Positions 12,390 through 63,757 of a stretch of DNA of 64,000 bases are shown piece by piece. The notes beneath the pieces are model-generated. The model did no database searches. It had not been told where the DNA came from and saw nothing but the letters and a program-made list of their open reading frames with translations. The stretch lies in the NCBI GenBank assembly GCA_027049035.1, contig JALTVI010000066.1:124001-188000 (forward strand), in the 5' to 3' direction. The stretch is from Sulfurovum sp. (lineage in GTDB: Bacteria > Campylobacterota > Campylobacteria > Campylobacterales > Sulfurovaceae). Position numbers and translations under genes: made by a program. The stretch's first letter is position 1. Every line of letters starts with the position of its first letter.

Positions 12390-13889
12390 TCAGAGGTAGT
12401 GTTCTCTCACATACGCCAGTGCCGCCTCTTTGTCCTCAAAATCACCATCCATCTGTTTGTCATAAAGTGCATCGAGTATGCTTTTGAATTTTGGTGAGGG
12501 TTCCAGGCCCAGTGCAATGAGGTCACGCCCCTGCACCAGAGGCTTCAGCGGTCTGTTACACACCGAAAGCTGTTTCGCCCGCTCAAGCAGCCACTCGCCT
12601 GCTGGGTACTCTCCCCGCTTCGCCTCAGGCGTGGTGCGCCCCAAAAAATCAGCCTTTGCCACCAATATCAGCTCTTCTATATTTACCTTGGTCGCCAGCC
12701 GCCTGATGGCCCCTGCCTTGGCACCCTGCCTGTAGAACTGCGAAGGCTTGAGATGATGTTCCACCAACGGCAGAATGCTTTCGATGAAGTCATGCTCATT
12801 GGTCAGACGGTAGAGGAAAGTACGTGTCGGTTCGATGCCGGCTTTTTCGTGGCGAAGCGATCGAATGCGAGCATTCGAATGAGGAATGAGGAATGAGGAA
12901 TGAGGAATTGTGGTATGTGTTTCTTGCGAAACACTTTTATTAAGCTCTTGCCAGTTTATAACTTTTCCATCTTCGTATTCTATGGTGGTGGTAAGGGGTT
13001 TGCCAAAGTCATGGCCGAGTTCGGCAAAAAGCAGCTTCAATCTCTCCTTCTCCTCCCTGCTCACTACTCCTTGCTCACTACTCACCATTTCCGCCATCAC
13101 ATCGACGCTCATCATCGTATGCACCCACACATCCCCTTCCGGGTGCCATTTGGGATCCTGCGGTACCCCTATGAGTGCGTGCAGTTCGGGAAAGTAGCGT
13201 GCCGTAATGCCCCACTTTCGCATCAGTTTGAACCCGACAGAGGGTTTGGGGGCTTTGAGCAGCAGCTTTTTCCACTCTTCATACACCCGCTCTTTTGGCA
13301 GCTCCTCAAGCATCCCTTCTGCTACCATCTTTTGACACAACACTGCTGTCTCTTCGGCCACTTCGAAATCAAAGCGTGCGGCAAACTGCACGGCACGGTA
13401 GACGCGCAGAGGGTCTTCCACAAAGGTAGCATCGTCGATATGACGCAAGATACCAAACTGAATGTCGTTGAGGCCGCCGTAGGGGTCGAGAATCTCTTGT
13501 GTCAGCAGGTCGTAGCCTATGGCATTGACGGTAAAGTCCCGCCGCTTTGCCGCAGTGGCGAAGGCCAGCCCCCCGTCAGGCACAACCTCGAAGCCCTGGT
13601 GCCCCTTTGCTGTTTTCTTTTCGGTACGGGGAAAAGCGAAATCGTACACTTCTTCCCCCGTATGCAGCTTCAGTACACCAAAACTCCTTCCCACCGCCGA
13701 CACTTTGCCAAAGCATGCAAGCAGCGTTTCAAGCTGCGAAACCTCCTGCAGGCCGTAGACTTCAATGTCAAAATCTTTTGGCTTACTGCCCATCACCATA
13801 TCACGCACCGCCCCGCCGACAAGTACGGCTCTGCCGCCTGCGGCATCTATCGCTTTGGCAGCCTCTTCAAGCAGCGGTGGCAGTTGCAT
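12390..13889 (-). CDS. cca: CCA tRNA nucleotidyltransferase / HD domain protein
   Basis: The N-terminal nucleotidyltransferase domain has VLVGGAVRDMVMGSKPKDFDIEVYG with the catalytic DxD. The tRNA-binding helical region follows (HIDDATFVEDPLRVYRAVQFAARF), then an HD domain (GHDFGKP) and VEHHLKP. The enzyme adds or repairs the 3' CCA of tRNAs. At 499 residues it is longer than usual. Two segments encoded by 7-bp repeat arrays (around 12877-12904 and 13057-13084) are inserted in frame. The larger one lies between the HD residues and RIRSLRHEKAG and adds roughly 30 residues. The reading frame remains open. Confidence 0.9.
   Translation of the reverse strand: MQLPPLLEEAAKAIDAAGGRAVLVGGAVRDMVMGSKPKDFDIEVYGLQEVSQLETLLACFGKVSAVGRSFGVLKLHTGEEVYDFAFPRTEKKTAKGHQGFEVVPDGGLAFATAAKRRDFTVNAIGYDLLTQEILDPYGGLNDIQFGILRHIDDATFVEDPLRVYRAVQFAARFDFEVAEETAVLCQKMVAEGMLEELPKERVYEEWKKLLLKAPKPSVGFKLMRKWGITARYFPELHALIGVPQDPKWHPEGDVWVHTMMSVDVMAEMVSSEQGVVSREEKERLKLLFAELGHDFGKPLTTTIEYEDGKVINWQELNKSVSQETHTTIPHSSFLIPHSNARIRSLRHEKAGIEPTRTFLYRLTNEHDFIESILPLVEHHLKPSQFYRQGAKAGAIRRLATKVNIEELILVAKADFLGRTTPEAKRGEYPAGEWLLERAKQLSVCNRPLKPLVQGRDLIALGLEPSPKFKSILDALYDKQMDGDFEDKEAALAYVREHYL
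12877..12904. repeat. Heptamer array (GAATGAG)x4 inside cca
   Basis: Four perfect tandem copies of GAATGAG lie on the plus strand. They directly adjoin a perfect palindrome TCGAATGC-GA-GCATTCGA (12861-12878). On the cca strand they encode the peptide PHSSFLIPH. A second hairpin, GTGTTTC-TTGC-GAAACAC, follows shortly after. The total insertion preserves the cca frame. Confidence 0.85.
13057..13084. repeat. Degenerate heptamer array inside cca
   Basis: Four 7-base units (CTGCTCA, CTACTCC, TTGCTCA, CTACTCA) are in tandem, and together they read as a 14-bp direct repeat. In cca they encode part of VSSEQGVVSREE, upstream of the HD motif. The pattern resembles the other 7-bp arrays in the window but has diverged. 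Confidence 0.65.
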
Positions 13890-31884: not shown

Positions 31885-31912
31885 ATAAAAAGGCTTTTCA
31901 GAATGAAAAGCC
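31885..31912 (-). terminator. Rho-independent terminator after gltB
   Basis: On the minus strand GGCTTTTC-ATTCT-GAAAAGCC forms a perfect 8-bp stem followed by TTTTTATT. It lies about 60 bases after the gltB stop, beyond the heptamer array, and before the inositol-phosphatase gene. Confidence 0.8.
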
Positions 31913-31920
31913 AACCAAAA

Positions 31921-31969
31921 CTCTTCACTCTTCACTATTCACTCTTCACTATCATCGCAAAGCGATGAT
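31921..31969. repeat. Heptamer array (CTCTTCA)x4 plus hairpin after gltB
   Basis: Four 7-base units (CTCTTCA, CTCTTCA, CTATTCA, CTCTTCA) occupy 31921-31948. They adjoin a perfect 8-bp hairpin ATCATCGC-AAA-GCGATGAT (31951-31969), which begins two bases after the gltB stop. Read along gltB the units are AGTGAAG-like. The hairpin-plus-heptamer layout matches the insertion inside cca. Confidence 0.85.
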
Positions 31970-43615: not shown

Positions 43616-43676
43616 CCAATAACCAATAACCAATAACCAATAACCAATAACCAATAACCAATAACCAATAACCAAT
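43616..43676. repeat. Heptamer array (CCAATAA)x8
   Basis: Eight perfect tandem copies of CCAATAA plus a partial CCAAT lie 54-114 bases upstream of the fructosamine-kinase start (the reverse reading is TTGGTTA). The copies are identical, which suggests recent or continuing slippage. A palindromic repeat follows on the right. Confidence 0.95.
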
Positions 43677-49652: not shown

Positions 49653-50075
49653 ATGAAACGTACCATCGTTTACGCCATAACCCTCTTGACTCTCTTTGCC
49701 CAAACGACCAATGCCGCTCCGGCAGACCTGAACGAACTTCAGGGTGACTGGCACCTGCGTGAACTCGACGGTTACGAAGTACGCAAAGCACGCGCCATTT
49801 TGGACTTCGAACCCTCCAAAATGGTCATCGACGGCTTCGATGCCTGCAACCGCATCAACGGCAAACTGATCAAAAAAGCCGACGGCACCTACACCAGCCG
49901 ACTTCGCACCACCCGTATGGCTTGCCGAGGCAACCTCTTCAGCTTCGTCAGCCAACGCCTGCACCAGGCCATCGACGAAGGCTTCACCGTTGAAAAGGCC
50001 ACACGCCACGGCATTGACGGCATACTGCTCAAAAGCAAATCACATGAACTCTTTTTCAAGCGAATGGGAGAATAA
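49653..50075 (+). CDS. Secreted META/HslJ-like domain protein
   Basis: A signal peptide (MKRTIVYAITLLTLFAQTTNA) precedes one META domain: LQGDWHLRELDGYEV, FDACNRINGKLIKK, and TRMACRG. This is the pattern of HslJ-like outer-membrane or periplasmic proteins linked with stress resistance. The gene stands alone, starting at ATG 49653. A perfect 8-copy heptamer array begins at the base after its stop. Confidence 0.82.
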   Translation: MKRTIVYAITLLTLFAQTTNAAPADLNELQGDWHLRELDGYEVRKARAILDFEPSKMVIDGFDACNRINGKLIKKADGTYTSRLRTTRMACRGNLFSFVSQRLHQAIDEGFTVEKATRHGIDGILLKSKSHELFFKRMGE

Positions 50076-50131
50076 GAAGGTAGAAGGTAGAAGGTAGAAG
50101 GTAGAAGGTAGAAGGTAGAAGGTAGAAGGTA
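50076..50131. repeat. Heptamer array (GAAGGTA)x8
   Basis: Eight perfect tandem copies of GAAGGTA (56 bases) begin immediately after the TAA of the META-domain gene. Confidence 0.95.
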
Positions 50132-50167
50132 GAAATTTTTCATGGTTGGATTAAAGTGAAGCTTAAA
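50132..50167. repeat. Conserved 36-bp block following heptamers (copy A)
   Basis: The block begins GAAATTTTTCATGGTTGG and ends AAGCTTAAA. It matches blocks at 61953-61987 and 62940-62975, each of which also directly follows a heptamer array. Confidence 0.8.
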
Positions 50168-50170
50168 CTT

Positions 50171-50253
50171 CGTCATTCCTGGCTTGACCAGGAATCTTTG
50201 TATTCATCACCCAAACAACATCAAGATCCCGCATCAAGTGCGGGACGACAGAT
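50171..50253. repeat. Pair of dispersed palindromic repeats
   Basis: The first is CGTCATTCCTGG-CTTGA-CCAGGAAT (stem 50175-50182 with 50188-50195). The second is TCCCGCA-TCAAG-TGCGGGA (50227-50245). The same two elements, in the same order, occur at 63070-63092 and 63118-63146. They resemble small intergenic palindromic repeats common in proteobacteria. Confidence 0.8.
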
Positions 50254-61193: not shown

Positions 61194-61889
61194 ATGTTAA
61201 AATACTGTATGGGAATAAAACTATTACTTCTGCTGTCGGCACCGTTTCTGCTCCATGCCGCCAATCTATTTATTATCACCGACAAAAAGGGCAAAGTCGT
61301 CGAAGAGAAGCATCTTAAAAAGTGCAACAATGCCTGCCTGAACCAGGATGCAAGAGAGTATTCACTGCAGGCTATCTACGATGCGCTGCACCGCGAAGAG
61401 AACCTTGCAAGAGCAGCACAGATGGCACGGGAAGCGGCTGAACGCATCGCAAAGGCGAGTACTGCTGCCAAGAAAAAGGGAAAGACATACCACCTCACTT
61501 CTGCCGACCGCGAAGCGCTCCTTCGCTACGCCAAATATTTCAAGGGCGGCAAGTATGTCTGGGGCGGTACGACACCTGAGGGCTTCGACTGCTCAGGGTA
61601 CGTACAGTACCTTTTCAAAAAGAACGGTGTCAACCTCCCCCGCACCGCCTGGGCACAATCGAAAAAGGGGATACCTGTCGATCTTGACAACCTGCAAAAA
61701 GGCGACCTGCTCTTCTTCCTGACCGACAAAAAACGCGGCATTCCCGTCACCCATGTGGGTATCTACCTTGGCAACGGCAAGTTCATCCATGCCGCTTCCA
61801 AGAAACAGGGCATTATCATCTCTCCCATCACACACGGCCACTATCGTGACTGCTTCGTTTCAGCGAGGAGAGTGCTGAAAAGGGGTTAA
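61194..61889 (+). CDS. NlpC/P60 family peptidoglycan endopeptidase
   Basis: A signal peptide (MGIKLLLLLSAPFLLHA, from the second ATG at 61209) is followed by a short coiled coil (about 55-95) and an NlpC/P60 domain with FDCSGYVQYLF (Cys133), THVGIYLGNG (His187) and FIHAAS (His199). It cleaves peptidoglycan stem peptides in the periplasm. Neither candidate start has a clear ribosome site. The stop TAA lies inside the first unit of a GGGTTAA array. Confidence 0.9.
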   Translation: MLKYCMGIKLLLLLSAPFLLHAANLFIITDKKGKVVEEKHLKKCNNACLNQDAREYSLQAIYDALHREENLARAAQMAREAAERIAKASTAAKKKGKTYHLTSADREALLRYAKYFKGGKYVWGGTTPEGFDCSGYVQYLFKKNGVNLPRTAWAQSKKGIPVDLDNLQKGDLLFFLTDKKRGIPVTHVGIYLGNGKFIHAASKKQGIIISPITHGHYRDCFVSARRVLKRG

Positions 61890-61950
61890 GGGTTAAGTTA
61901 AGGGTTAAGGGTTAAGGGTTAAGGGTTAAGGGTTAAGGGTTAAGGGTTAA
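61883..61950. repeat. Heptamer array (GGGTTAA)x9 with one short unit
   Basis: Nine full copies of GGGTTAA and one 5-base GTTAA unit (third position) overlap and follow the stop of the NlpC/P60 gene; the TAA of the first unit is the stop codon. Confidence 0.95.
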
Positions 61951-61952
61951 GG

Positions 61953-61987
61953 GAATTTTGCATTGTTTGGTTAATGAAAAGCTTAAA
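61953..61987. repeat. Conserved 36-bp block (copy B)
   Basis: GAATTTTGCATTGTTTGG to AAGCTTAAA, directly after the GGGTTAA array, aligned with copies A and C. A GTGAGGA-TTCA-TCCTCAC hairpin follows at 61998-62015. The rest of 61890-62095 shows no gene. Confidence 0.78.
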
Positions 61988-62095: not shown

Positions 62096-62938
62096 ATGCA
62101 CATCAAACCCGACTGTATCACCTGCATAATGAACCAGACGCTGAAGGTCACCAAGCTGCTGCAGCTTGACGATACAACAAGCAAAACCCTGCTTGATGAA
62201 ACGGCAAAGATCCTGATCGAGAGTTCTCTTGCAATGACACCGCCGCAGATCGCGCAGCACACCTATGCCAAAATCGCCGAAATCACAGGCATCGATGACC
62301 CTGTTGCCAAAGCCAAGGAGGCGGCGACCAAAATCGCACTCAATGTTGATACCCCCTTTGTCAAGACACTGCACGATGCCGTCAAGTTTGCCGTTATCGG
62401 GAATGTCATCGATTTTGGTGCGCAGCAGGAGTTCGACCTCAACGAAGTCATCCGGAGCCACTTTCACCGGAAATTCGCCATAGATGATTTTGAGGCATTC
62501 GAAGAGTCCTTAAAGAAGGCAGAAAGTCTTGTTTACCTTGGTGACAACACCGGAGAGCACATCTTCGACCGGCTTCTCATCGAAAAGATCAAAGATGCCT
62601 ATGACATCGATGTCTACTATTTCGTACGCGGCAAACCCATCATCAACGACGTTACCGTTAAAGAGGCAAAGCTCTTGGAGGATGTCGCAACTATCGTGGA
62701 CACCGGTGTCCCCACACCCGGCTTCGACCTTGATTACGCCAACACATACGCCAAAGAGCTTTTTGAAAACGCAGACATCGTCCTCTCAAAAGGAATGGGC
62801 AACTACGAATCCCTCTACGACGTCTGTGACAGAACGGTTTTTTACCTTTTTATCGTCAAATGCAATGTCGTCTCCAATGCCATCGGACAGCCGGTGGGGG
62901 AGCTTGTGTTTGCGGAACACGGAAAGAGTGAGGAATGA
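62096..62938 (+). CDS. DUF89 (ARMT1-like) metal-dependent phosphatase
   Basis: The DUF89 features are present: N-terminal CITC (C7, C10), LVYLGDNTGEHIFDRLL with metal-binding Asp/Asn, DVTVKEA, VDTGVPTPGF and SKGMGNYESL. This family contains damage-control phosphatases acting on sugar or cofactor phosphates. It is 280 residues and cytoplasmic. The start is ATG 62096 after AAAGAGGC. The stop TGA lies inside a GAATGAG unit, and copy C of the 36-bp block follows. Confidence 0.87.
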   Translation: MHIKPDCITCIMNQTLKVTKLLQLDDTTSKTLLDETAKILIESSLAMTPPQIAQHTYAKIAEITGIDDPVAKAKEAATKIALNVDTPFVKTLHDAVKFAVIGNVIDFGAQQEFDLNEVIRSHFHRKFAIDDFEAFEESLKKAESLVYLGDNTGEHIFDRLLIEKIKDAYDIDVYYFVRGKPIINDVTVKEAKLLEDVATIVDTGVPTPGFDLDYANTYAKELFENADIVLSKGMGNYESLYDVCDRTVFYLFIVKCNVVSNAIGQPVGELVFAEHGKSEE

Positions 62939-62975
62939 GGAAATTTTGCATGGATTGGTTGAAGTCAACCTTAAA
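62926..62975. repeat. Two heptamers plus 36-bp block (copy C)
   Basis: GAGTGAG and GAATGAG (62926-62939) cover the DUF89 gene stop, followed at once by the block GAAATTTTGCATGGATTGG to CAACCTTAAA (62940-62975). Confidence 0.78.
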
Positions 62976-62976
62976 T

Positions 62977-63191
62977 AGCTAAGTGGGAACCGAATGCTTT
63001 AGCTTCAGCAACAAGTCATATTGGCAATCTAACGTTTGGCGGGGCTGAAGCCTCCGATTCCAAAACTCCGTCATTCCTACAAAAGTAGGAATCTTTGCGT
63101 GAATTAACCATTCGGCATCAAGACCCCGCATCAAGTACGTGATGACACATAAACTCACTCCCAAATATACGAAAACACCAATAACCAATCA
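62977..63191. repeat. Palindrome cluster between DUF89 gene and ruvA
   Basis: Four elements follow each other: AGCTAA/TTAGCT (62977-63004), GCTTCAGC/GCTGAAGC (63002-63051), ATTCCTAC-AAAA-GTAGGAAT (63073-63092) and a decayed copy of the ATCAAG..CCCGCATCAAG element (63118-63146). CCAATAA and CCAATCA heptamers (63178-63191) lie next to the ruvA stop. The whole 258-base gap between genes appears built from repeats. Confidence 0.7.
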
Positions 63192-63196
63192 CAAAC

Positions 63197-63757
63197 CTAC
63201 AATCTCTGCAGCTTCTTCAAGCCCTCTTTGACCAGTGTGGCAGTATCGCCGCTGCATCCTGCAAGGGCTTTCTGGATCGCATCTTTTTTGAAGCCGAGGC
63301 TCTCAAGGGCCATGGTAGCTTCGACCATCGACGCACCCACGCTCTCCCCTGCTCCCTCACCATCGACAATGAAGTCGGCAAGCTCCACCAGAATGCGGCT
63401 TGCCGCCTTGGGACCGATGCCCGGAACACGTTTTAGCATGCCGACATCTTTGGAGGTGACCACTTTGGCAAAGGTTTCGGGAGTGAAAGTCGAACAGACG
63501 GCCAGTGCCACTTTGGGACCTACACCGTTTATTTTGATGAGCGTATCGAACATCTTCTTTTCGTTACGCTCCATAAAGCCGTAAAGCGCATCGGTATCTT
63601 CACGGATGATACGCGTAGCAAAGAGCTTCACCCGCTTCTCTTTGATGGCGTTTGAGGTATTGATGGAGATGTGCACCTCATAGACCAGTCCGTTTACGTT
63701 CAGGTACACATAGGTGGGGTCCTTGTGCTCCACACTCCCTTCGATTCCGACTATCAT
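63197..63757 (-). CDS. ruvA: Holliday junction DNA helicase subunit RuvA
   Basis: The OB-fold start [21 protein letters not shown] is followed by the domain II HhH repeats [17 protein letters not shown] and [19 protein letters not shown] and a C-terminal domain III ([19 protein letters not shown]). RuvA targets RuvB to Holliday junctions. The start at 63757 follows AAAAGGAA; the frame continues to 63793 without support. Length 186, typical of Campylobacterota. It is divergent from murJ. Confidence 0.96.

Follow-up and report, generated by a model that had tools for sequence, protein, structure and literature searches.

The window, a 64,000-nucleotide stretch of a Sulfurovum sp. genome, contains a composite repeat attached to the end of a META-domain gene (PF03724; 49653-50075; features are on the forward strand unless stated otherwise). 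The TAA stop codon of the gene (50073-50075) is located at the left edge of an array of 8.6 GAAGGTA units with 100% purity (50075-50134). The array is followed by a 36-bp block (50132-50167) and a pair of CGTC-type palindromes (50171-50253, RNA fold z -3.45), the first of which is terminator-like. A preliminary description of the window had reported this composite of heptamer array, block and two palindromes, and its parts lie where they had been placed, within a base or two.

Two further copies of the block are present in the window. An NlpC/P60 gene (61194-61889) ends within the first unit of a (GGGTTAA)10 array with imperfect units on its left (61883-61953), which is followed by the second block copy (61952-61987). 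The ARMT1-like gene (62096-62938) has its TGA stop inside a short array of about two units, GAGTGAG GAATGAG GA (62926-62941), which leads into the third block copy (62940-62975). This is followed by a second palindromic module (ggaaccgaatgctttagcttc ... gaagcctccgattcc; 62976-63069), another CGTC-type palindrome pair (63070-63146) and a right-end motif, CCAATAACCAATCACAAACC, that adjoins the stop of the convergent gene (63170-63199, start approximate). A block pattern allowing up to three mismatches matches only the three block copies in the window, while 100 shuffles expect 0.00 matches. The blocks reported after the GGGTTAA array and the GAATGAG units are real, but calling them near-identical was too strong, as their pairwise identity is 78-81% (28-29 of 36 positions). 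The palindromes do recur at 63070-63146 in the same order as at 50171-50253, as had been claimed, but about 95 bp of the other palindromic module separates them from the block, and the block at 61952 has no CGTC palindromes after it. No Rfam matches were found in the window.

Heptamer arrays in the window also occur next to other elements. On the reverse strand, a GTGAAGA array after a large gene (31920-31950) is followed by a flush intrinsic terminator (31887-31919) in the place of the block. A GAATGAG array with a terminator-like hairpin (delimited as 12877-12936 or 12877-12957) forms an antisense insert within the gene of the CCA-adding enzyme (12390-13889, reverse strand). An array of 8.7 CCAATAA units adjoining a CGTC palindrome (43616-43676) belongs to the right-end type and carries no stop codon. 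The CCAATAA array is an expanded form of a dispersed 30-bp motif, CCAATAACCAATACACCAGTTACCAATAAC, which is built of roughly 7-bp steps and has about 50 copies per genome by extrapolation.

The 36-bp block and its flush array

In the genome from which the window is taken (G000; 2.49 Mb in 92 contigs), 19 sites match a degenerate block pattern when up to three mismatches are allowed, compared to none for the reversed pattern. All 19 carry a 7-bp array flush on the left in the same orientation, and the heptamer varies by site. With a sequence-only block model, we find 27 copies in G000; over the 78 genomes of the genus it gives 100 matches in 15 genomes, and 99 of these matches have readable surroundings. 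The preliminary description had proposed such a profile, with an array expected to the left of each hit and a gene end beyond it. Both expectations are borne out: in 80 of the 99 blocks, an array of two or more units (score at least 7) meets the left side of the block at the same base, and a same-strand gene ends at 62 of these 80 arrays. Most of the 19 remaining blocks keep one worn unit (about one and a half units). A weak match in G028, located in coding-like DNA, is probably due to chance. The boundary between array and block is sharp, and the last two bases follow the heptamer.

The exact block pattern, searched over 84,980 species genomes, was found only in metagenome-assembled genomes named Sulfurovum, and no match was found in the IMG/VR viruses. 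A second, weaker model detects the block in another genus of the family (G130, loci L276/L284), again with a flush heptamer array, GTGGGTA. The four other family matches of this model lie within coding-like DNA and have no arrays.

Orthologous blocks differ in 7% of comparisons at well-conserved columns and in 42% at variable columns, the latter resembling neutral sites. This contrast indicates purifying selection on the conserved part of the block, although it is partly ascertained, as the copies were found with a model that rewards the conserved columns. Neither a consensus RNA structure nor covariation was found for the block, and single copies do not fold better than shuffled sequences. 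It does not have the conserved or covarying stem and U-tract of a structured RNA or an intrinsic terminator, and a hand-drawn stem was not supported on testing. A coding peptide was also considered and dropped, as stop codons break the frame in several copies read by eye. Because the block has no RNA fold, its function can only be inferred.

Most arrays of G000 have neighbors other than the block, a point absent from the preliminary description. An unselected 464-kb sample of G000, used for background counts of array periods and motifs, contains 30 arrays of period 7 with a score of 14 or more; no other period between 3 and 15 is represented by more than 2. Most of the sampled arrays have no block, and many are followed by an intrinsic terminator beginning with TTTTGGTATGC or similar, as at window position 31920. 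The array with a flush intrinsic terminator constitutes a second anchor type, with the same layout at many other gene ends. Two regions (L180 and L181; G000:C15:110001-130000 and G000:C85:30001-50000) contain local clusters of many arrays of other types (TTGAATG, GGTTCGG, CGTGATT), some of which face each other in inverted orientation.

Gene ends and stop codons

The gene ends at the 62 arrays are ends of long same-strand ORFs. The stop codon is inside the array in 44 cases, always in its first 20 or so bases, and in the other 18 it precedes the array, mostly by no more than 10 nt. None of the 62 ORFs reads past the array. The preliminary description had not noted that the upstream gene usually takes its stop codon from the array. 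Arrays classed as stop-supplying contain a stop by definition, and the informative observations are the absence of read-through and a shuffle test of the units.

The arrays comprise 31 distinct heptamers (rotation classes), which are purine-rich, with 6% C on the gene strand. TAA, TAG or TGA is present on the array strand in 29 of the 31, compared to 20.2±2.2 in within-heptamer shuffles, none of which reaches 29 in 20,000 trials. On the opposite strand, only 8 of the 31 contain a stop. When each ortholog group is counted once, the result is similar, with a stop in 65 of 67 heptamers versus 47.4±3.2 in shuffles. Since 7 is not divisible by 3, a single stop in the unit suffices to close all three frames. 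The enrichment holds too in arrays that end no gene, so selection at gene ends may not be its sole cause, and another cause or common ancestry of the heptamers may contribute.

Cassettes are located between convergent genes in 35 cases and between co-oriented genes in 18 cases in one orientation and 13 in the other, while divergent contexts are nearly absent. In most of the 13, the distance from the array edge to a start codon is roughly 40-65 bp, which is about the expected position of the beginning of a promoter. At one locus (L056), the array and block constitute the entire spacer between two convergent genes.

It is possible that the block acts at the end of transcripts, as a terminator or another 3'-end element, and that the C-rich, G-poor antisense strand of the array serves as a loading site for Rho against read-through from the facing gene. 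Several observations point in this direction: the cassettes are found at the ends of genes and avoid divergent promoter regions, like arrays at other gene ends are followed by intrinsic terminators, the gene strand of the heptamers is poor in C, and the spacer of L056 consists of nothing but array and block. The block has neither a fold nor covariation, however, and the proposed rut site is deduced from base composition, with which it agrees. We regard this role as a tentative possibility, compatible with the origin of the cassette proposed below.

Insertion and heptamer replacement at orthologous sites

The ARMT1 site can be compared with its empty counterparts. In G103, G055 and G049, as well as in the outgroups G035 and G114, array and block are missing and the convergent genes adjoin, their stops being back to back or a few bases apart. 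G000 and G002 carry the composite of array, block, palindromic modules and CCAATAACCAAT right end between the ARMT1-like gene and its convergent neighbor, and the stop of each gene has been replaced. In G031, the site holds only an array of a different heptamer, GCACTGA, together with other DNA. The parsimonious reading of these sequences is that the composite was inserted in the ancestor of G000 and G002, which the preliminary description had not considered. The right-end motif is found up to 420 nt after 26 of 94 blocks, while the unselected 464 kb contain only 9 copies.

Comparison by eye with the empty sites reveals no target-site duplication at the ARMT1 site. The cassette is not delimited by the terminal inverted repeats and target-site duplications of a miniature inverted-repeat transposable element (MITE); its ends are of GAGTGAG type and CCAATAA type. 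It shares with MITEs the presence or absence at orthologous sites, observed at the ARMT1 site and, for a terminator-type cassette, in the loop of the CCA-adding enzyme. There, the antisense insert of array and hairpin is read through in frame, relatives have other heptamers, and G023, G017, G046 and G008 have a clean empty site. In a second loop of this enzyme (window 13053-13083), degenerate coding-strand heptamers (MVSSEQGVVSREE) are present in nearly all relatives, and the units are apparently altered such that no in-frame stop appears. Mobilization of the RAYT/IS200 kind was considered and rejected. G000 encodes two Y1 transposases, neither of which is flanked by the block; both have other repeats as flanks, and no transposase tied to the cassette was found. 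At L041, the repeats that flank a RAYT-like Y1 transposase gene belong to a different family, with copies of GGGGTCAGGTGATAATAATAAC.

The same gene end can carry different heptamers. At the end of the TrmH-like gene (..SIMMYQF), the array consists of CAGTGAG in G000, CGTTGAG in G049, TAATGAG in G002, GGTTAAG in G055 and TTTAGCG in G112, with a lone GGGTAGC unit in G103 and G114. In G019, GTAGCAG is present without the block, and in more distant species the gene ends in FKH.. and has no array. The end of gdhA carries GTAGAAG in G000 and GATGATG in three relatives; other genomes have arrays with a decayed block, a terminator or nothing. The preliminary description had proposed a modular element in which the block persists and the 7-bp part changes. 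This is true between copies within one genome and, in the more telling comparison, at orthologous gene ends across species.

A common heptamer is present in 30% of 47 orthologous pairs and in 4% of non-orthologous pairs between genomes, so the arrays are inherited but often changed. Over all orthologous pairs, heptamers diverge by a mean of about 0.32 per nt (about 0.24 between G000 and G002), and the divergence at 4-fold sites in the TrmH-like gene and gdhA is 0.29-0.55 among core species. As the heptamers diverge no more than synonymous sites do, neutral drift of a homogenized array would suffice, and active regeneration would not be needed to explain their change. Of the two alternatives left by the preliminary description, divergence is therefore favored over regeneration. 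Heptamers that have changed between orthologs differ at 3.2 of 7 in-register positions, compared to 4.1 in random pairs. They are only slightly closer than random pairs, which counts against the explanation that we favor.

Alternatively, the block might be the recognition or priming site of a host or element enzyme that writes new 7-nt units, so that heptamers change in jumps. Such a process would fit the exclusive period of 7, the sharp array-block boundary with its heptamer-following last two bases, and the position of the old common unit on the gene side and of new units on the block side (ARMT1 and TrmH-like sites of G000/G002; L001/L034). At the ARMT1 site, the gene-side unit is GAGTGAG in both genomes, while the block-side units are GAATGAG in G000 and CAGTGAG in G002. 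We nevertheless consider this process unlikely: the heptamers do not diverge above the neutral level, intermediate arrays with one-base variants exist (L116, L076, L092), the left-right asymmetry within arrays is weak (6 versus 1 arrays) with few imperfect arrays to judge from, and heptamer arrays also adjoin intrinsic terminators where no block is present.

Origin of the cassette and relation to known repeats

Our results are probably best explained by an intergenic Sulfurovum cassette, dispersed and once mobile, that settles at the 3' ends of genes, with heptamers that drift and a block that is under selection. Read from the left, the cassette begins with the 7-bp tandem array and continues with the 36-bp block and palindromic modules, in many cases up to a right end of CCAATAA type. 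The units of the array may turn over by slippage, which would allow one mutated unit to spread through the whole array, and the heptamer would drift at about the neutral rate while the period of 7 is maintained. Where an array overran a gene end, stop-free heptamers would have been purged, since a stop in a 7-bp repeat recurs in three frames, so that about 21 nt of array are enough to end any frame entering from upstream. The least certain step of this scheme concerns the retention of the block, which may act where the transcript ends or bind a protein. Slippage fails to account for 7 as the sole period, and this counts against the proposed cassette.

In a bolder variant, the block would serve as a fixed anchor, next to which a dedicated process makes and renews 7-nt units of arbitrary sequence, giving a self-renewing, all-frame stop signal at gene ends; we regard this as quite improbable. 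Least of all do we expect that ordinary simple-sequence repeats happen to adjoin a MITE-like repeat to which they have no functional link. In favor of this idea, Xanthomonas and Nostoc are known to have heptameric repeats close to stop codons (PMC4692102), and most arrays in this genome have no block. Against it, the block is under selection, 80 of 99 blocks have the array flush on one and the same side and at one and the same base, and the association extends to another genus of the family (G130). The last two observations refute a chance association and leave this idea only as a link that goes back to a common origin of the inserted unit.

Many bacteria have an excess of heptamer repeats for which there is no accepted reason. 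The cassette offers a natural series of orthologous sites in which a slot fixed by the block is refilled with different heptamers, nearly all of them stop-bearing. With this series, it can be tested directly how 7-bp repeats arise, turn over and are constrained. The cassette also shows how conserved genes (such as gdhA, miaA, thiI and mutS2) can acquire new ends from an insertion with little apparent harm.

Our literature search found no earlier description of a block-anchored, stop-supplying and species-variable array, while CGTC palindromes (PMC3733652) and heptamers near stop codons in other bacteria (PMC4692102) are already known. In general terms, the arrays are heptameric simple-sequence repeats, with perfect 7-bp tandem units in intergenic DNA. 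The G-rich repeats of Xanthomonas and Nostoc, GGGAATC and GGGGAYT, differ in that each genome has one heptamer family, no conserved block flanks them and a G-quadruplex has been proposed (PMC4692102). GGGAATC contains no stop codon, unlike most heptamers described here, and the latter do not form a G-quadruplex family with runs of at least three G, as most of them (GAATGAG, GAAGGTA, GAGTTAA) lack GGG. The TAACTGA direct repeats of marine Beggiatoaceae, whose all-frame stops were noted by MacGregor (PMC4679880), are likewise 7 bp long, carry stops in three frames and can overlap gene ends. They consist of one fixed heptamer, which is absent from our 31, point mostly towards start codons and have no block, and no replacement at orthologous sites has been reported for them.

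CGTC-tagged REP palindromes have been described, with Sulfurovum NBC37-1 included (PMC3733652). Judged by sequence and hairpins, both palindrome pairs of the window (50171-50253 and 63070-63146) belong to this kind, which often occurs in pairs. REPs have been reported without a heptamer array or a 36-bp block (PMC3733652), and many cassettes have no REPs; the cassette as a whole is not flanked in G000 by the Y1 tyrosine transposase of a REP/RAYT system. MITEs and palindromic elements within genes (for example, Rickettsia palindromic elements; reviewed in PMC10969869) are small, dispersed, non-coding insertions like the cassette. They resemble it also in the related form that is read through in frame in the loop of the CCA-adding enzyme. 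In the cassette, by contrast, no terminal inverted repeats or transposase were found and the ends are heptamer arrays.
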